DNA of 64,000 bases, from assembly GCF_003002955.1 (NCBI RefSeq), contig NZ_PVTJ01000010.1, forward strand, positions 62,001-126,000. The letters are read 5' to 3'. This document shows, piece after piece, positions 5,396 through 28,338 of this stretch. The first letter of the stretch is position 1; every line of letters begins with the position of its first letter. The notes beneath the pieces were generated by a model. It saw only the letters and a program-made list of their open reading frames with translations, ran no database searches and had not been told where the DNA came from. The DNA comes from Glycomyces artemisiae (GTDB taxonomy: Bacteria > Actinomycetota > Actinomycetes > Mycobacteriales > Micromonosporaceae). Made by a program: the position numbers and the translations under genes.

Positions 5396-6523
5396 ATGCG
5401 CCGACCCGCACTCGCGCTCCTGTCGCTCCCGCTCCTCCTGACCGCCTGCGGCGGTGAGGAGCCCGTCGAGGTCACCGATGAAGACATCGAGGCGATCGAG
5501 CAGAGCATCGTCAACATCTCCACCTTCAGTTGGGAACTGGTCCAGGCGGAGTACCGCGTCGGCTCCATGTGCATGCAGGACGAGGGCTACACGGTCCACG
5601 ACCCGCTCGCCCTCTTCGGGAACGCCGTCCCGAACCGCTTCACCGGCTTCGCCTCCCCGTACGCCCGCATCCCCACGGTCGAGCAGGCCGAGAAGTTCGC
5701 CTTCGGCGACTGGGTCACCTGGACCGACACCGATGCGGCCCTTGAGATGCGCGAGGACCCCGACTACCTGGCCGCCCACGCCGAGGACCAGGGCTACTGG
5801 GAGCCCGCCTGGGACGCCGAGCACGAGGAGTTCGAGGCCCAGGGCGAGGAGTACACGGTCGCTTGGGAGAAGGCGTGGAAGGGCCCCGAGCGCTACGAGT
5901 ACGACCAGGCGTTCGAGGAGGCGATGGAGTCCGCCGGGGACCCCGCGGAGATCGATCTCGAACAGCCGCCGTTCGGCGGCTGCGAGCTGGAGACCATCGA
6001 GACGGTCTACGGCGAGCCCGAGCAGCGCGAGTACGACGACGGCTCGACATACTGGCTCAAGCCCGGCAACGACGAGAGCCCGCTGACGCAGATCGGCGAC
6101 GGCGAGATCTACGGGGAGATGCTCGGCGAGTACGCCGACGAGGAGGACTCGTTCCTCGGCTGCCTCGCCGACCGCGGCTACGGCGAATGGGAGTTCAGCG
6201 AGCTGGGCTGGCTGGCGACCGACCAGTACATCACGGTGAACCTGTACGGCGACACCACGATCGCCTACGAAGGCGACGAGCGCGTCGAAGTCCCCGAACT
6301 CCCCGACGGCCTCGACACCACCGACCCCGTGGCCGCCGAGTTCGCGATCGCCCTCGACTTCGCGCAGTGCGCCGAGGACTCGGGCCTCCGGGACGGCTCC
6401 GAGGAGCTCTACGCGCGCCTGTACGTGGAGAAGCTCATGCCGAACCAGACCGAGATCTACGCCCAGGAGCAGCAGGTCAAGGACCACTTGGCGAACGCCC
6501 AGTCCTACATCGAGGGGGAGTAG
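5396..6523 (+). CDS. secreted lipoprotein, unknown function
   Basis: A 375-residue protein with an N-terminal signal (MRRPALALLSLPLLL) ending in the lipobox LTAC, so Cys20 should be lipidated and the protein held on the outer face of the membrane. The mature part is strongly acidic, rich in Glu, Asp and Tyr, and contains few Cys (CMQDEGY, GCELET, GCLADRGY, FAQCAED), which may form disulphides. A similar pattern of spaced cysteines occurs in uncharacterised actinobacterial lipoproteins. AAGGG lies eight bases before the ATG. No enzymatic motif was recognised. Confidence 0.8.
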   Translation: MRRPALALLSLPLLLTACGGEEPVEVTDEDIEAIEQSIVNISTFSWELVQAEYRVGSMCMQDEGYTVHDPLALFGNAVPNRFTGFASPYARIPTVEQAEKFAFGDWVTWTDTDAALEMREDPDYLAAHAEDQGYWEPAWDAEHEEFEAQGEEYTVAWEKAWKGPERYEYDQAFEEAMESAGDPAEIDLEQPPFGGCELETIETVYGEPEQREYDDGSTYWLKPGNDESPLTQIGDGEIYGEMLGEYADEEDSFLGCLADRGYGEWEFSELGWLATDQYITVNLYGDTTIAYEGDERVEVPELPDGLDTTDPVAAEFAIALDFAQCAEDSGLRDGSEELYARLYVEKLMPNQTEIYAQEQQVKDHLANAQSYIEGE

Positions 6524-6563
6524 CGGAAGCGGCCGGAGGGGCGAAAGGGGAACGGCTGTCGGT

Positions 6564-6584
6564 CCCCCGATCTACGATCGGGGG
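6564..6584 (+). promoter_or_regulatory. perfect 9-bp inverted repeat over the -10 and start region of the VOC gene
   Basis: CCCCCGATC (6564-6572), TAC, GATCGGGGG (6576-6584) end one base before the ATG at 6586. TACGAT at 6573-6578 fits a -10 seven bases before the start. If transcription starts at the ATG, this is an operator; if it starts further upstream, the hairpin would hide the ribosome site. Confidence 0.5.
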
Positions 6585-6585
6585 C

Positions 6586-7038
6586 ATGGCCGTACCGTTC
6601 AAGATCTGCATCGACTGCACCGACCCGCACCGCTTGGCCGACTTCTGGGCCGCCGCGATGGACTACGTCGTCGAGGACCACTCGGCGCTCATCGCGATGC
6701 TCCTCGAACAGGGGGTCGTCACCGAGGAGCACACCGTGGAGGTCCACGGCCGCAAGGGATGGAAGACCGCCGCCGCGGTCCGCGACCCCGAAGCGCCCTT
6801 CGACCCGGTGCGCGGAACGGGCAAGGGCATGCGGCTGCTGTTCCAGGTCGTGCCCGAGCCGAAGACCGTCAAGAACCGCCTCCACCTGGACCTCCACTAC
6901 GGTCCCGACAATTACGAGGCCGAAGCCGACCGCCTCGAAAGCCTCGGCGCGACCCGCCTGGGCGCCTACGACGAGGACGGCGCCAAGTGGATCCTCATGG
7001 CCGACCCCGAAGGCAACGAGTTCTGCTGCCACGCCTGA
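6586..7038 (+). CDS. glyoxalase-fold (VOC superfamily) protein
   Basis: A 150-residue protein with the two beta-alpha-beta-beta-beta units of the VOC fold. FKICIDCTDPHRLADFWAAAM is the standard opening of glyoxalase-like proteins in actinobacteria, and NRLHLDLH and DPEGNEFCCH are the usual metal-site strands of the second half. The closing 'DPEGNEFC' pattern is typical of this subfamily, whose substrates are mostly unknown. The start lies directly behind the inverted repeat at 6564-6584. Confidence 0.85.
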   Translation: MAVPFKICIDCTDPHRLADFWAAAMDYVVEDHSALIAMLLEQGVVTEEHTVEVHGRKGWKTAAAVRDPEAPFDPVRGTGKGMRLLFQVVPEPKTVKNRLHLDLHYGPDNYEAEADRLESLGATRLGAYDEDGAKWILMADPEGNEFCCHA

Positions 7039-7167
7039 GCACCGGCGGCGGCCGCGAGGCCGCCGCCGACGTCGCCCGCGGGCTCGCGACCACGGGCTGA
7101 GCGGCCTATCGCGCCGACCCGACCGGGCGGTAAATTCGTTCGCGGAACCAGTAGAAGGTGAACCGCG

Positions 7168-7755
7168 ATGCCCGAACCAGACCCGAACGTCCGCCTCTCC
7201 AACGCCGAACGCGAGGCCCTCATCGCCCGGCTCCAGGCCGCCACCGAAGAGGGCCGCCTCGACCTGGACGAGTTCGCCGAGCGCTCCCGCGAGGTCTACG
7301 AAGCGAAGACCTACGCCGAGGTCGAGCGCCTCCTCACCGACCTCCCCGCCGAGGACCGCGCCCTCGCGGTCCCGGGCCGCGCCAAGGTCGGCGGCAACGC
7401 GCCCGACCTGGAACTGAACCCCTCCCACTCGCACGTCAAGCGGCAGGGCGAATGGCGGGTCCCGGCGCGCATCAAGGCCAAGGCGGCCCACAGCGCGATC
7501 ACGCTCGACTGCCGCACTGCCGTGTTCACCGCCGCGGACATCGACCTCGACGTCGACCTCCGGCACTCCAAGATCACGCTCATCCTCCCGCCGAACGCCT
7601 CCGCGATCGACGAGGGCGTCGAGCTCCACGGCGGCGCGGTGGTCAACCGCTGCCACTCGGCCTCCGGCGGCCCCCGGTTCCACATCTCCGGAAAGAACGC
7701 GTGGAGCAAGGTCGTCGTGCGCCGGGAACGCCGCTTCCTGTGGTGGCGTTGGTAA
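7168..7755 (+). CDS. DUF1707 domain protein with cell-wall-sensing-type C-terminus
   Basis: A 195-residue protein. Residues 7-60 (VRLSNAEREALIARLQ, then GRLDLDEFAERS) are the DUF1707/SHOCT-like helical domain. Residues 85-180 form a beta-rich domain (ITLDCRTAVFT, DVDLRHSKITLILPP) resembling the LiaF/YvqF C-terminal domain. It has no membrane span of its own. GAAGGTG precedes the ATG. A role in envelope stress signalling is only inferred from the LiaF similarity. Confidence 0.8.
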   Translation: MPEPDPNVRLSNAEREALIARLQAATEEGRLDLDEFAERSREVYEAKTYAEVERLLTDLPAEDRALAVPGRAKVGGNAPDLELNPSHSHVKRQGEWRVPARIKAKAAHSAITLDCRTAVFTAADIDLDVDLRHSKITLILPPNASAIDEGVELHGGAVVNRCHSASGGPRFHISGKNAWSKVVVRRERRFLWWRW

Positions 7756-7783
7756 GACCCTCCCAGACCGTCCGACCGCTGCA

Positions 7784-7816
7784 GCGGCGTCGCCGAGTAA
7801 TCGGCGGCGCCGCTTT
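7784..7816 (+). terminator. terminator after the DUF1707 gene
   Basis: A 13-bp stem with one mismatch (7784-7796 with 7801-7813), a GTAA loop and then TTT, starting 28 bases after the stop. Confidence 0.7.
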
Positions 7817-7860
7817 CCGGTGTCACCCGGTCCAGTAACGGGTTGTTCACTATTTGCCAT

Positions 7861-7918
7861 GGGATGTCCCTCGAATGGCGTAACTCGCGCGCCCGAGGCT
7901 CGTTAATCACGACATCCC
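7861..7918 (+). promoter_or_regulatory. inverted repeat / structured leader in front of the LuxR regulator
   Basis: GGGATGTC (7861-7868) pairs with GACATCCC (7911-7918), and CCTCG/CGAGG (7869-7873, 7894-7898) extend the stem. It lies about 100 bases before the regulator start and could be an RNA leader structure or a binding site. Confidence 0.35.
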
Positions 7919-7942
7919 TTTCCGATCCACCCATTCACATCC

Positions 7943-7962
7943 ATTCCCACCGATTCCCACCG
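7943..7962 (+). repeat. tandem ATTCCCACCG repeat
   Basis: Two exact 10-bp copies, with a degenerate third (TCCCCACCGG) near 7972. They are part of the leader of the LuxR gene. Confidence 0.5.
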
Positions 7963-8015
7963 GTCGCGCCGTCCCCACCGGCGGCGCGCTCAACTCATCG
8001 AAAGCGAGAAGGACC

Positions 8016-8636
8016 ATGAGCACCATGGTTGTCTGCGTCCCGACCGTGCAAGCGGCCAGGGCCATATCCGCAAGCGCCTCCCGCATGGGCCAGGCGCTGT
8101 CCGTCAGGACCGTCGACTGCGCCGCGTCGCTGCTCGTCGAGCTGCGGCGCAAGTTCGTCGAGACCGCGATCATCGACTTCCGCCTGGCCGCGCCGAACCC
8201 CGTCATCTTCGCGCAGAACCTGCGCTCCCGGTTCCCGCAGACGTCCCTGGTCATGTGCGGCGACGCCGAGCCGCGGATCGCGGCGATGGTCGTCGCCGCG
8301 GGCGCGAAGGGGGTGCTGCGGGCGCCCTCGCCGGGCGGCGACGCGCTGCTGGTCGCCTTCGCGCAGGCGTACCAGTTCGCCTGTCGCGCAGCCGCGGAGG
8401 CGAAGGAGGTGATGCCGCGCCAGCGCGCGGGTCGCGGGGGCTCGCTGCTGAGCAACCGCGAGCTGGAGGTCCTCTGGGCGATGTGCGAGGGGATGACCAA
8501 CGCGGAGATCGGTGCGCGCCTGCACGTCTCGGAGGACACCGTGAAGACCCATGCGAAGCGCATGTACGGGAAGCTCGGGGCGCGGGACCGGGCGCAGGCC
8601 GTGGCGCGGGCGTTCCGGTCGGGCCTGGTCGCTTGA
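8016..8636 (+). CDS. LuxR-family regulator with an atypical receiver domain
   Basis: A 206-residue DNA-binding regulator. Residues 1-115 keep the receiver outline, and AIIDFRL is placed like the phospho-acceptor strand. The acidic pair expected after beta-1 is missing (MVVCVPT), so normal Mg-dependent phosphorylation is doubtful. Residues 140-200 (LSNRELEVLWAMCEGMTNAEIGARL, then VKTHAKRMYGKLGARDRAQA) are a standard LuxR helix-turn-helix. GAGAAGGACC lies before the ATG. No sensor kinase is adjacent, which fits an orphan regulator of the BldM/WhiI kind. Confidence 0.85.
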   Translation: MSTMVVCVPTVQAARAISASASRMGQALSVRTVDCAASLLVELRRKFVETAIIDFRLAAPNPVIFAQNLRSRFPQTSLVMCGDAEPRIAAMVVAAGAKGVLRAPSPGGDALLVAFAQAYQFACRAAAEAKEVMPRQRAGRGGSLLSNRELEVLWAMCEGMTNAEIGARLHVSEDTVKTHAKRMYGKLGARDRAQAVARAFRSGLVA

Positions 8637-20267: not shown

Positions 20268-22070
20268 ATGTCGAGTCAACCCAGCCCCCCGCCGTACCAG
20301 GGACCGCCCAGCGGCCCCCCGTACCAGCAGCCTCCCGCGCCGCAGCAGTACTACCAGCCGGGCCCCGCCCAGCCGGTCCCGTACGTGGAAGCCGGTGCGC
20401 CCGGCGCGCCCGGGCAGCCCCCGTACCTCCCGCCGGGCGCGTACACGCCCGCGCCGCCGCCCCCGCCCCGCGGCGGGCGCGGCGCGAAGGTCGCCATCGC
20501 GACGATCCTCTCCGTGGTCCTCCTCGCCGCCGTCGGCGCCGTGGTCCTCTTCAAGTTCGTCCTCAAGGGCGGACCCGACCCGGCCGAGAGCTTCCCCGCC
20601 TCCGCGAGCATGTACATGGAGCTCAACCTCGACCCGTCGTTCGACCAGACCCCGAAGCTCCTGGAGCACCTCTCCAAGTTCGAGGACCTCGACTACGACT
20701 CCACCGACGACCTCCTCGCCGACCTCATCGAGGAGTCCGGCCTCGAAGGCGTCGACGCCGAGAAGGACCTCAGCTCCTGGCTCGGCGGCCGCCACGGCGC
20801 CGCCATGTGGGAGTACGACGGCCAGCCGTACGCGGTCGTGAGCCTCGCCAGCACCGACGCGGGCGCCGCCGAGGACGGCCTCGCGAACCTCCGCGCCGCC
20901 GCGGGCGTCGACGAGGACCAGATGGCCTACACCGTCGAGGACGACCACGTCCTCATGGTCGTCGGCGAGACGGGCGCGGCCGCCGCGCTCGACGCCGCGA
21001 AGTCCGAGGCCGGATCCGAGCCGCTCTCCGCCTCCGCCTCCTACGAGGAGGCCCGCGCCTGGCTCGACGGCGACCAGCTCGCCGTCTACTGGGTCGACAT
21101 GGACTCCGTCGCCGAGCTCGCCGAGCTCACCGGCGAGGACGCCGACATGTTCTCCGAGTTCTACTCCGGCCAGCTCATCGCGGGCTTCTCCGCGTTCGAC
21201 GACGGCTTCGAGCTGACCTACCGCCTCTTCGGCGGCGAGGACGACCCGTGGACCGGCTCCGAGGACCTCCTCGCGAACATGGGCGAGCTGCCCGCCGCCG
21301 ACGTCGCCGCCACCGCGCACATCCCCGAGAACATCGGCGACCTCACCAGTGAATGGCTCGAAGCCTACGAGGGCCTCTACGGCGTCGACGACTACGCGGC
21401 CGAACCGGCCGAGCCCGCCGGAGACCCGCTCACCGCCGAGGAGTACACCGAGTACCTCGAACTCCAGGACGGCTACTACAACGGCACCCTCACCGCCGAA
21501 GAGGAGACCCGCTACCTCGAACTCGACACCCGCTACTGGACCGCGGGCACCGTCGAGGACCCGTGGGTCGACGACTCCGACGACTACGACTACGGCCCCT
21601 CCGCCGAGGAGATCGAAGCCATGGTCACCGAGTTCACCGACCTCCTCGCCGGGGCCGACCTCTCCTTCGCGGGCGACTTCGACGCCGAGGAGGGCATGAA
21701 CCCCGACTCCGTGCTCGCCTCCGCGCACCTCGCCGAGGACCGCGCCGCCGACCTCCAGGCGCTCATCGACGAGTCGCTCACCGAGGAAGGGGCCGAACTC
21801 CCCGAGGGCGTCACCGCCGACGGCTCCGAGATCTCCTACACCGGCAGCGAGACCGCGTCCGGGACCCTCAGCGAGGACTCCCGGTTCAGCGACTTCGCCG
21901 CCGCCGCACCCGAGCAGTCCGCCGTCGCGGTCTGGGTCGACCTCGCCGCGGCCGCCGAGACCTTCCCCGACGAGTTCGAAGGCGCCCAAGCGCTCTCGGC
22001 CTTCGCGTGGGCCCACGGCTCCGACGGGGGCGACGGCACCGGCGTCCTGCGCCTGTACCTGACGGATTAG
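20268..22070 (+). CDS. DUF3352 membrane-anchored protein
   Basis: A 600-residue protein. Residues 1-70 are a Pro/Gln/Tyr-rich cytoplasmic tail, a single membrane span follows (about 75-98, VAIATILSVVLLAAVGAVVLF), and the rest is a large, very acidic outer domain. The opening SASMYMELNLDPSFDQ is the DUF3352 signature. The extracellular part is rich in Asp, Glu and Tyr (two EYTEYLELQDGYY-like stretches near residue 390-420). TAGCGT lies six bases before the ATG. Its function is unknown. Confidence 0.8.
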   Translation: MSSQPSPPPYQGPPSGPPYQQPPAPQQYYQPGPAQPVPYVEAGAPGAPGQPPYLPPGAYTPAPPPPPRGGRGAKVAIATILSVVLLAAVGAVVLFKFVLKGGPDPAESFPASASMYMELNLDPSFDQTPKLLEHLSKFEDLDYDSTDDLLADLIEESGLEGVDAEKDLSSWLGGRHGAAMWEYDGQPYAVVSLASTDAGAAEDGLANLRAAAGVDEDQMAYTVEDDHVLMVVGETGAAAALDAAKSEAGSEPLSASASYEEARAWLDGDQLAVYWVDMDSVAELAELTGEDADMFSEFYSGQLIAGFSAFDDGFELTYRLFGGEDDPWTGSEDLLANMGELPAADVAATAHIPENIGDLTSEWLEAYEGLYGVDDYAAEPAEPAGDPLTAEEYTEYLELQDGYYNGTLTAEEETRYLELDTRYWTAGTVEDPWVDDSDDYDYGPSAEEIEAMVTEFTDLLAGADLSFAGDFDAEEGMNPDSVLASAHLAEDRAADLQALIDESLTEEGAELPEGVTADGSEISYTGSETASGTLSEDSRFSDFAAAAPEQSAVAVWVDLAAAAETFPDEFEGAQALSAFAWAHGSDGGDGTGVLRLYLTD

Positions 22071-24934: not shown

Positions 24935-25301
24935 CGCTCACCTCCTTCGCGTCGTCTGCATCACACCATGCGTCGTCCCACGGTACGCAATGGCCTGACG
25001 TATTTCCGACAGTTGCCTGGAACCCGGGCGGGAAGTCCCAATACCATCACACCTGGTCACAATCGCATCACAATTCACGACTATGACGGGTTTTTGCCCT
25101 AAACTCCGAGAAATGTCCTGTTCGCTGCCTGCCCGAACGTCGGCCGCGCGGGGCGCAACCGGAGGCCGACTCGATCGTTAACCCAAGGGAGACAGCGAGA
25201 ACTCCTCCAATCAAGTCGACCCGAACGCCTCGCACGCAAGACGCCTCCGAGCCCCCTGATCGTACGAGCTCGGCGCAACCAGGAAGGAGCACCGGCGCAC
25301 G
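24935..25301. other. 367-base non-coding region between divergent genes
   Basis: No gene is seen. It holds the promoters of the SepX-like gene (minus) and the fused sigma factor gene (plus). It is AT-richer than its surroundings and carries the phased TCACA repeats at 25047-25078. A possible -10 for the sigma gene is TAAACT at 25100-25105, which would give a leader of about 190 bases. AGGAAGGAG lies about 13 bases before the start. Confidence 0.6.
25047..25078 (+). promoter_or_regulatory. helically phased TCACA repeats
   Basis: TCACA starts at 25047, 25057 and 25068 (the last two extended to TCACAAT), and TTCAC follows at 25074-25078. The 10-11 bp steps put them on one face of the helix. They lie just upstream of a possible -10 at 25100. 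Confidence 0.5.
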
Positions 25302-27779
25302 ATGCCCGAGACCGTCCCCGCCGGCGATCCGCGCGGCCCCGGACCCGACGCCCCCGGCGACACCCCAGACGCGCTCTCCGACCCCGAGCTCATCGCGGCC
25401 ACCCGCCGCGGCGACACCACCGCCTACGCGGTCCTCTACGAGCGCCACGTCCACGCCGCCCGCCGCCTCTCGCGCATCCTCAGCCGCGACCCCGCGGGCG
25501 CCGACGACCTCGTCTCCGAGACGTTCGCGAAGCTCCTCCACACCTTCCGCGAAGGCGGCGGCCCCGACCTCGCCTTCCGGCCCTACATGCTCCAGACCCT
25601 CCGCAACACCTTCTACGACCGCGTGCGCCGCGACAAGAAGGTCGAGTTCACCGACGACCTCTCGCCCCACGACTCCGGCGAGATCTACGTCGACCCCGCT
25701 GTCGAGGGCCAGGAGCGCCGCTACGCCGCCCTCGCCTTCGGGAAGCTCCCCGAGCGGTGGCGGATGGTCCTGTGGCACACCGAGGTCGAGGAGGACTCCC
25801 CGGCCAAGATCGCCACGATGCTCGGCATGACCCCGAACGGGGTGTCCGCGCTCGCGTACCGGGCCCGCGAGAAGCTCCGCCAGAACTACCTGACCGAGCA
25901 CGCCGCCGACTCCCCGCGCGAGGAGTGCCGCTGGACCGTCGACCGCCTGGGTGCGCGCGTGCGCGGCAAGCTCGGCGAGCGCGACATGCAGAAGGTCGAC
26001 GACCACCTCGACTCGTGCGTCACCTGCAACCTCCTGTTCGCGGAGCTGACGGAGCTGAACTCCGGCCTGCGCGTCGTCATCGCCTGGGTGTTCCTCGGAC
26101 AGACCGCCAGCCCGTACCTCGCGGCGGGCGCCGTCTCGGCCGCGGGGCTCGCCGTCGGCGGGGTGCTCGCGTTCTTCGCCGCGCCGTTCATCAGGGTGTT
26201 CAACTGGATGCGCCGGATCGTGCAGCAGCTCGGCACGAAGGGCACCGTCGCCACCGGGACCGCCGTGGCGGTGGTCGCCGCCGTCGCGGTCTTCGCGCTC
26301 ACCTCCGGCGAGGAGGAGGAGCCGCCGCAGGCCGCGCCCGACGAGCCCGCGGTCACCGAGCCCGCCGACCCCGGCCCCGAGGCCGAGGACGACCCGGTCC
26401 CCGACCCCGACGACCCCGCGGAGGAGGACCCGGACGACCCCGAGCCCGAACCGGACCCCGACGACCCGGCGGAGGAGCCCGCGCCCGACGAGGAGGACCC
26501 GACGGCGTACGCCATCGCGCACGGCCTCGGCACGAGCGGCCTCGTCGCCGGGGGCGAAGCGGTGCTGCCGATCCGCCTCGAAGCGCCAGAGAACGCCGGC
26601 GGCGCCTACGCGCCGCGCACCGAGCGGACCGCCGAGTCCGCGGTCGTCGGCCACGGCCAGGCGGCCTCGACCGACCGCGTCACGCTCGACATCGTCTTCC
26701 CCGCGGGGATCACGCTCGCCTCCGAGACCGCCGACCCCGGCTGGACCTGCATCGAAGGGGACGCCGTGCACTGCACCATCCCCGAGATGCCGTCGCCCGC
26801 GGAGGCGAACCTGCGGATCAATATCGCCGACGACGTCTCCGGCTACCAGACTTTCGAGGTCACCGTGGACGGCCCGGGGATCTCCGGGACCACCCGGCTC
26901 CAGGTGCCGATCGCCCCGGCCGGGTCCACCGTCGGGTACGCGAGCCTCGACGCCACCGGCGTCACGGCCTCCGGGAACACCTGGATGACCTGCTCGATCC
27001 CCGGCTGCCGGGAGGCCACGCTGCTCGGCGCGGGCGACCGCTGGCCGATGAAGGCGTACAAGCCGCAGACCGCGCCCGCCGGGCGCGAGGGCGAGGCCGC
27101 CTCCGGCGCGGTCCTCGACGTCCCCGGCGGCGCCACCGTGACATGGGCGGGCCTGTACTGGGCGGGCGCCCACGAGGACCTGCCGACCGAGGTGTCGCTG
27201 CACGGGCCGGGCGGGTCCTGGACCTCGCTGTCCGCCGACTCGATCACCGACACGACGCCGGGCGTGCAGGCGTTCGCCGACGTCACGGGCCTGGTGAGCG
27301 GCGGCGGCGAGTACTGGGTCTCCACCGACAACCACCAGCTGCCGACCTCCGACTGCGGCACCTGGCCGATCGGCGCGGACGCGCACTGCATCGCGGAGCA
27401 GCACTGGGCGGGCTGGTCCCTCACGGTGGTCTACGCGGAGCCGGGCGCGGACGCGAAGGAGGTCGCGGTCTACGACGGCGCGGACGCGGCGGACACGGAG
27501 ATCGAGATCGAGAACGGCGGGGAAGTCGACATCGCCGCGACCCTGTGGGGCGGCTCGGCGAACCGCCGCGGCGACAGCGTCTCCGCGGGCGACCAGCACC
27601 TGGGCCAGGCGGCCTCGTGCTACGCGAACGGCGCGGTGGACAACCCGAACTGGTACGCGTTCGGCGTCGACGTGCAGGTCTACACCGCGCACACCGGCCA
27701 GGCCGGGGTGATCCGCTTCGAGCGCGGCGACGACCCGTTCATCGTCGGCGTGGTCGCCGTCGCGCAGCCGCACGTGTAA
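25302..27779 (+). CDS. ECF-type sigma factor fused to zinc finger, membrane helices and an extracellular domain
   Basis: A single 825-residue chain. Residues 27-95 are sigma region 2 (DLVSETFAKLLHTF, then PYMLQTLRNTFYDRVRR). Residues 140-197 are region 4 (LPERWRMVLWHTEVE, then IATMLGMTPNGVSALAYRA). Residues 207-245 form an anti-sigma-type zinc finger with Cys209, His235, Cys239 and Cys242. Two or three membrane spans lie at about 255-300 and 314-335. Residues 336-400 are an acidic Pro-rich linker. Residues 401-825 are beta-rich, with VTWAGLYWAGA, FADVTGLV and GWSLTVVYAEPG strands typical of surface proteins. Three spans would place the C-terminus outside. Fused sigma/anti-sigma proteins with extracellular domains are known among actinobacterial ECF groups, but the surface domain and its ligand here are unassigned. 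Confidence 0.9.
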   Translation: MPETVPAGDPRGPGPDAPGDTPDALSDPELIAATRRGDTTAYAVLYERHVHAARRLSRILSRDPAGADDLVSETFAKLLHTFREGGGPDLAFRPYMLQTLRNTFYDRVRRDKKVEFTDDLSPHDSGEIYVDPAVEGQERRYAALAFGKLPERWRMVLWHTEVEEDSPAKIATMLGMTPNGVSALAYRAREKLRQNYLTEHAADSPREECRWTVDRLGARVRGKLGERDMQKVDDHLDSCVTCNLLFAELTELNSGLRVVIAWVFLGQTASPYLAAGAVSAAGLAVGGVLAFFAAPFIRVFNWMRRIVQQLGTKGTVATGTAVAVVAAVAVFALTSGEEEEPPQAAPDEPAVTEPADPGPEAEDDPVPDPDDPAEEDPDDPEPEPDPDDPAEEPAPDEEDPTAYAIAHGLGTSGLVAGGEAVLPIRLEAPENAGGAYAPRTERTAESAVVGHGQAASTDRVTLDIVFPAGITLASETADPGWTCIEGDAVHCTIPEMPSPAEANLRINIADDVSGYQTFEVTVDGPGISGTTRLQVPIAPAGSTVGYASLDATGVTASGNTWMTCSIPGCREATLLGAGDRWPMKAYKPQTAPAGREGEAASGAVLDVPGGATVTWAGLYWAGAHEDLPTEVSLHGPGGSWTSLSADSITDTTPGVQAFADVTGLVSGGGEYWVSTDNHQLPTSDCGTWPIGADAHCIAEQHWAGWSLTVVYAEPGADAKEVAVYDGADAADTEIEIENGGEVDIAATLWGGSANRRGDSVSAGDQHLGQAASCYANGAVDNPNWYAFGVDVQVYTAHTGQAGVIRFERGDDPFIVGVVAVAQPHV

Positions 27780-27828: not shown

Positions 27829-28338
27829 ATGACCACCACCGACACCCCGGCGCGTACGGGCCTCTTCGCACGGGCCCTGGGGCTGATCAAGCGACACTCC
27901 CGCGAGCTCAGCGGGTTCCTCAGCATCGGCGGCGCCGCCTTCATCGTCGACGCGGGACTGTTCAATCTGCTGTACATCGGCTACGACTGGTCCTACTGGT
28001 ACGCGAAGATCCTCTCCGCGGTCGTCTCGATGACCCTCGCGTTCTTCGGCAACCGGCACTGGACCTGGCGCGAGCGCCGCGGCTCGGCCGCCGCGCACCG
28101 CCAGTACGCGCTGTACTTCTTCTTCAACGGCATCGGCCTGCTCATCAGCATGGGCTGCCTGTGGATCAACAGCCGCCTCGCCGAGGTCTGGCCGCACATC
28201 TTCGACACGAAGATCGCGGTCAACGTCGCCGCCCTGCTCTTCGGCGTCGGCATCGCCTCGGTCTTCCGGTTCTTCGCCTACCGCACCTGGGTGTTCCGGC
28301 GCCTGCCGCAGCTCCAGGAGGCCCCGGAGACCGCCTGA
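27829..28338 (+). CDS. GtrA-family membrane protein
   Basis: A 169-residue protein with four membrane spans. FLSIGGAAFIVDAGLFNLLY and the loop FFGNRHWTWRER are typical of GtrA-like proteins, which take part in moving lipid-linked sugars across the membrane. The last span ends in FRFFAYRTWVFRR, also characteristic. It follows the sigma gene by 49 bases but has its own -10-like TATCCT. Confidence 0.88.
   Translation: MTTTDTPARTGLFARALGLIKRHSRELSGFLSIGGAAFIVDAGLFNLLYIGYDWSYWYAKILSAVVSMTLAFFGNRHWTWRERRGSAAAHRQYALYFFFNGIGLLISMGCLWINSRLAEVWPHIFDTKIAVNVAALLFGVGIASVFRFFAYRTWVFRRLPQLQEAPETA

Follow-up and report, generated by a model that had tools for sequence, protein, structure and literature searches.

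The known system that comes closest to the protein described here is SCO4117 of Streptomyces coelicolor, in which sigma regions 2 and 4, a zf-HC2 anti-sigma domain, a membrane span, a Pro-rich linker and an outer domain are joined in one chain, and whose gene adjoins atrA (PMC5826349). ECF52, the group of SCO4117, had been described previously, and SCO4117 was studied by knockout (PMC5826349). A strain with the sigma domain only sporulated and produced antibiotics later than the wild type and sporulated faster than the knockout, expression of the sigma gene was up 1.3-fold, and the authors name proteolytic release as a possibility (PMC5826349). A 2022 review expects proteolysis to release the fused groups ECF48, ECF52 and ECF53, among which it names only SCO4117 as best understood (PMC8999054). 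The same review presents IutY of Pseudomonas putida (ECF243), a sigma factor fused to a membrane anti-sigma factor and released through cuts by Prc and RseP, as the one fusion whose proteolytic activation has been demonstrated (PMC8999054). Compared with the protein studied here, IutY serves iron-starvation cell-surface signalling in a Gram-negative bacterium and belongs to another ECF group. Some ECF52/53 proteins bear predicted carbohydrate-binding and glycosyl hydrolase domains, as stated in a 2024 review (PMC10766802). The overall design of our protein, that of the ECF52/ECF53 receptor sigma factors, is already known; its outer head and its GtrA neighbour are less expected. Because ECF52 had been described and SCO4117 knocked out before, the locus is less novel than the sequence-only reading implied.

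One chain from sigma factor to outer domain

The window, by which we mean the whole 64,000-nucleotide stretch of DNA that was analysed, contains a gene for a fused ECF sigma / anti-sigma / membrane / outer-domain protein of 825 residues (25302..27779, forward strand), with the ATG at 25302 and the stop codon at 27777-27779. The gene was searched for in 41 genomes, comprising its own, 20 of the genus with the whole gene, G020 and 19 from outside the genus. It forms a single complete frame in 21/22 Glycomyces genomes, its own included, with lengths of 825-903 residues from the aligned start, while in the twenty-second (G020) it is split by contig ends. In the genus alignment the third codon position is the most variable in each of five segments, the linker among them, where differences amount to 0.435 at the third position versus 0.191 at the first and 0.231 at the second. 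Since this third-position excess runs through the linker, the junction between the sigma and outer parts is coding, and a single translated chain spans both. The unbroken frames in 21/22 genomes, together with the coding linker, rule out a frameshift as well as a pair of separate genes; the family alignment holds one frame, and the claim of a single polypeptide, made earlier from the letters of the DNA, is borne out. The sigma-finger part is the most conserved within the genus (the first and second codon positions show differences of 0.074 and 0.056 there, compared with 0.16-0.20 in the outer part). The top relatives among the best 80 of at least 456 are Glycomyces species, with N-terminal parts up to 91% identical, and these best 80 are also the relatives used in the locus comparisons. 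Some loci of the genus coincide in their BLAST rows with named relatives, as L004 and L034 do, and the genus is taken to be Glycomyces.

The chain begins with Sigma-70 region 2 (residues 45-113, 25434..25640, forward strand; Pfam PF04542 Sigma70_r2, E 2.9e-9) and region 4 (residues 144-192, 25731..25877, forward strand; PF08281 Sigma70_r4_2, E 4.6e-6), followed by a zf-HC2 anti-sigma zinc finger (residues 209-242, 25926..26027, forward strand; PF13490, E 4.9e-7). All three matches exceed the curated Pfam cut-offs, and TIGR02937 (sigma70-ECF) likewise passes its cut-off, which places the protein among the ECF sigma factors. The sigma part also matches solved ECF sigma factors, with a best E of 2e-11. 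The Cys-His-Cys-Cys finger is made up of C209, H235, C239 and C242, which are invariant in 33/33 rows of an alignment (A3) of the window protein with 32 hand-picked loci.

The main membrane span lies at residues 315-333 (26244..26300, forward strand; hydropathy 2.21) and is preceded by a weaker hydrophobic segment, a possible span or hairpin, at residues 273-291 (26118..26174, forward strand; hydropathy 1.95). A strong hydrophobic span just before the linker was found in the window protein and in 21/21 relatives profiled. The 15 residues upstream of it carry a net positive charge in 16 of these 21 relatives, are neutral in four and have a charge of -1 in one (L102). A counterpart of segment 273-291 is present in the four Glycomyces proteins profiled and less strong in L070 and L088, and a hydrophobic stretch right after the finger is over the threshold in 15 of the 21 relatives profiled and below it in the window protein. 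We read these profiles as either one membrane helix or three with a hairpin. Of the two or three helices originally proposed, the strong span at 315-333 stands, and the hydropathy fits one, or three with a hairpin; exactly two would place the C-terminus inside. Behind the span follows the linker (residues 336-398, 26307..26495, forward strand), which contains 19 Pro and 30 Asp/Glu and no Lys or Arg, and then the outer part (residues 399-825). The finger, the acidic Pro-rich linker with about 425 outer residues behind it, and the order of sigma, anti-sigma, membrane and outer domains had all been named in the sequence-only reading and are supported by Pfam, hydropathy and linker composition.

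The ten cysteines of the window protein comprise three finger ligands and seven residues in the outer part. Two pairs, C483/C491 in the first and C564/C569 in the second half of the outer part, are invariant in 20/20 aligned rows (alignment A2, in which the window protein is joined by 19 of the 22 loci matched in the outer part, L032, L038 and L042 being left out). These invariant pairs and the secreted-looking homologues treated below suggest that the outer part lies outside the cell. A topology with the C-terminus inside is indirectly argued against by the single dominant span before the linker, with a net positive charge on its inner side in most relatives profiled, by the position of all non-finger cysteines in the outer part, two pairs of them invariant, and by homologues that look signal-bearing by eye.

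The sigma-finger part and its outer heads

For the sigma-finger part a maximum-likelihood tree was computed from 92 of 108 rows, after 13 Lentzea and three incomplete rows had been dropped (midpoint root, for drawing only). The window protein falls into a group that is supported by 96/98 and comprises 73 rows of several actinobacterial families. The neighbours of this group are seven proteins of SCO4117 layout (97/90), with which it shares a branch supported by 100/99. The window protein is accordingly sister to, and not within, the SCO4117-like proteins in the midpoint-rooted tree; the tree program flags the placements of L156, L143 and L165 as unsure. By this comparison the sigma-finger part is nearest to proteins of SCO4117 (ECF52) layout, which, through the joint branch of 100/99, supports the earlier suggestion of kinship to fused actinobacterial ECF groups. 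We infer that the seven genomes of genus g72, from which the SCO4117-like proteins were taken as stand-ins for SCO4117 itself, are Streptomyces and that these proteins are its orthologues, because of their layout, the NPCBM domain (L149, L153) and a TetR-like gene seen by eye upstream in both loci.

Two ECF52 features, a zf-HC2 anti-sigma domain after region 4 and a transmembrane region followed by a Pro-rich extension, are present in the window protein. The heads differ: NPCBM was found in the two SCO4117-like proteins scanned (L149, L153), whereas the window protein has a DUF11/DUF3344-like head. Pfam gave no NPCBM match in the window protein at E 1, and the carbohydrate-binding C-terminus of ECF52 was thus not found in it. 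The general layout is also seen in ricin-lectin sigma fusions of g72, which we would guess to be ECF53; these 12 proteins match the N-terminal profile more weakly (E 8.4e-39 to 2.7e-16), and a ricin-type lectin was found in 3/3 of those scanned. A grouping of the window protein with them was rejected, 11/12 falling outside the joint 100/99 branch. The one inside (L156) has a very long branch, and no lectin was seen in it. Heads on related sigma-finger parts include NPCBM (L149, L153), a ricin lectin (L102) and DUF7507 (L088), and in L056, L070 and L099 no Pfam family was found past the linker at E 0.1. The lectin head of L102, the Mumia quercus relative, is carried on the same chassis (5995-8157 of its locus).

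The outer part of the window protein has two portions. The first (residues 399-540, 26496..26921, forward strand) is weakly DUF11-like, DUF11 (PF01345) matching the window protein at E 0.02 and, in a scan of outer parts, at E 0.0032 with 18.2 bits, below its cut-off of 24.6. The second (residues 541-825, 26922..27776, forward strand) is a DUF3344-related surface-protein module defined by profile A4; DUF3344 (PF11824) itself reaches E 0.04 and, in the scan of outer parts, E 0.0037 with 17.3 bits, below its cut-off of 27.2. We call the module DUF3344-related through intermediates because one protein (L136) scores above the DUF3344 cut-off and is also found by profile A4. A Pfam scan of 20 outer parts at E 0.1 returned DUF11 in five and DUF3344 in three, and three DUF11 stretches were found by Pfam in L119, a single-sequence match in the order. 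NCBIfam returned 0 families in 20 members, and the best match to a solved structure, an OmpA-like-domain protein at E 0.018, was not usable. As a domain general to the relatives the first portion was rejected, since its HMM, which matched no shuffled sequence, matched only 3/81 other C-terminal regions (L023, L068, L066).

Among the best 80 of at least 456 relatives the outer part was matched in 22 loci, from Glycomyces, Stackebrandtia, Phytomonospora, Actinorhabdospora, Phytohabitans, Catelliglobosispora, Allorhizocola, Catellatospora and two metagenome bins; a match was additionally found in L023. Its second half was found in 12/249 genomes of the order (single-sequence search) and in 12/296 genomes of the phylum (profile A4, E down to 3.9e-42), the own genome being included in both counts, and the module is therefore uncommon. 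A search of the own genome at E 10 turned up no further copy of the outer part, and a DUF3344 search there gave no match at E 0.001. Beyond the own genome, 12 of 16 matches of profile A4 follow an N-terminus that looks signal-like by eye, several being followed in turn by repeats, which upholds the earlier view that the outer domain resembles surface-protein modules. These DUF3344-related, secreted-looking surface proteins of Actinomycetota have the outer module in common with the window protein and carry it near the signal-like N-terminus, in many cases with DUF11-like repeats behind it; unlike in the window protein, no sigma part was seen in them by eye. Four frames of 393-424 residues (L135, L136, L138, L139), signal-like by eye, consist chiefly of the DUF3344-related domain; we infer their genus to be Streptomyces.

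A more distant fusion was found in another class of the phylum (L143 and L147, the same frame, starting at 2106 of L147 on the forward strand). It is a sigma-type fusion of 848 residues in one frame that carries the outer module of the window protein, with E 1e-29 for the N-terminal and E 4e-32 for the outer profile. Its zf-HC2 match is above the cut-off, no Pfam sigma match was obtained at E 0.01, and by eye its finger is without the last two cysteines.

The gtrA neighbour and the upstream region

The sigma gene is followed by a gene for a GtrA/DPMS-family membrane protein (27829..28338, forward strand; Pfam PF04138, E 2.3e-21), whose ATG lies 49 bp past the sigma stop codon, and both genes probably belong to the same operon. 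The neighbourhood was compared in 77 closest relatives with a complete sigma end, taken from the best 80 of at least 456. A GtrA-type frame on the same strand, with its earliest start at most 200 bp downstream, was present in 67 of these 77 and a GtrA-type frame within 3.5 kb in 71; in six the sigma and GtrA frames overlap by 4 bp. Larger distances were found in L037 (257 bp), L076 (306 bp), L079 (1,465 bp) and L053 (3,145 bp), and no GtrA was detected within 3.5 kb in the remaining six (L047, L048, L049, L060, L088, L102). In many of these relatives the first GtrA-type frame is followed by another.

Among ten query proteins, of which the biotin ligase is not counted, seven neighbours from the window were detectable in Glycomyces loci, and GtrA was the sole one of these found in loci outside Glycomycetaceae and Micromonosporaceae; within the flanks of 6 kb that were compared, the sigma-GtrA pair therefore persists longer than the other neighbours. 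The link could be one of inherited gene order. As a feature of SCO4117-like loci the pair was rejected, because no GtrA was found in 6/6 such loci, which extend about 5 kb to either side of the match; in the seventh (L150) the sequence ends inside the gene. Likewise none was found in the 8 kb around the distant L143/L147 fusion (G375). GtrA proteins are regarded as putative flippases of lipid-linked sugars; the same source also reports an opposing view, in which Rv3789 serves as an anchor protein (PMC7389260). Our literature search, in sources other than the primary ECF classification papers, returned no paper on the sigma-gtrA pair and none on a DUF3344-type outer domain in sigma factors. Elsewhere in the window (20268-22070), a 600-residue frame, judged by eye, starts with a region rich in Pro and Gln, probably crosses the membrane once and has a C-terminal part that is long and acidic.

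Upstream, 367 bp separate the start of a divergent gene (24934) from that of the sigma gene and contain blocks conserved in the genus. The region contains the tandem motif GTCACA-N5-ATCACAA (25056..25073, forward strand). Its general form GTCACA-N5-RTCACRA has 21 exact matches in 22 genus genomes, 19 of them at the sigma locus and two elsewhere, with three genomes having no match and the reversed control giving two matches. The MtrA site is given as GTnACn-n5-GTnACn (PMC13189361), which the window motif resembles, deviating at one position of the second half. As a candidate MtrA site it may serve either of the divergent genes. From the upstream alignment of 21 genus genomes we further note, as a lead only, the possible ECF-type promoter GCGCAACC-N15-CGTTA (25153..25180, forward strand), which has three matches in the own genome and none for the reversed control. 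Its two other sites in the own genome have no clear target by eye, and among the outgroups the pattern occurs in 1/16 upstream regions, at -508 (L046).

Proposed signal transfer and its alternatives

We consider it rather probable that the window protein is a one-chain, ECF52-like transmembrane receptor, in which the finger holds the sigma factor until an envelope signal triggers stepwise proteolysis and release. Layout, conservation, kinship and the gtrA neighbour, all read from sequence, speak for the receptor; inhibition by the finger, a head outside the cell, cleavage, release and a signal from glycans or surface assembly are presumed, and the scheme of inhibition, cleavage and release follows SCO4117 and IutY. 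At rest, the finger domain would keep both sigma regions, 2 and 4, at the inner face of the membrane. The outer module would feel a change at the cell surface, be it in wall or surface glycan or in an assembled surface protein, which would expose the chain to a site-1 protease. An M50-family site-2 protease would then cut within the membrane and cytoplasmic proteolysis would set the sigma factor free. The free sigma factor would activate genes of the envelope, its own operon with gtrA plausibly among them. M50 proteases are encoded in the own genome, but also in 14/14 control genomes, and are thus generic.

It is unlikely that signalling proceeds without proteolysis, that is, by a conformational change that loosens the finger so that the tethered sigma factor recruits RNA polymerase at the membrane. 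In favour of such a route, the analysis revealed no cleavage site in the window protein, and other extended ECFs, namely ECF41 and CorE-like ones, are described in the 2022 review as acting through a change of conformation (PMC8999054). However, a single strong span with a long Pro/Asp/Glu-rich linker suits cleavage better, as the comparison with IutY indicates. Moreover, ECF41 and CorE-like ECFs are soluble proteins, which speaks against them as precedents. We give even less credence to a constitutive cut soon after synthesis that would yield a sigma/anti-sigma part and a surface protein, either shed or bound to the wall, regulation then lying elsewhere: the long Pro/Asp/Glu-rich linker and the homology of the outer module to stand-alone, secreted-looking proteins would agree with it, but the fusion is retained in 21/22 genus genomes and in relatives from other genera. 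We regard it as very improbable that the sigma part has decayed to the vestigial cytoplasmic tail of what is chiefly a surface protein, because regions 2 and 4 both exceed their Pfam cut-offs and the sigma-finger is the most conserved part in the genus, even if the L143/L147 fusion gives no Pfam sigma match at E 0.01 and by eye lacks two finger cysteines.

Returning to the proteolytically released receptor, we suppose that lineages would have retained the sigma / anti-sigma / membrane chassis and swapped the outer head. More tentatively, and with a modest chance of being right, we suggest a family of sigma receptors with exchangeable heads in an operon with a GtrA flippase, in which the Glycomyces head would be a captured surface module that reports on surface assembly or glycosylation. 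The combination of a different outer module with a frequent GtrA partner across bacterial families offers a testable hint at the signal, namely surface sugar modification or assembly. If this is true, the cell would monitor the state of its surface coat through a domain of the type that such coats are made of.
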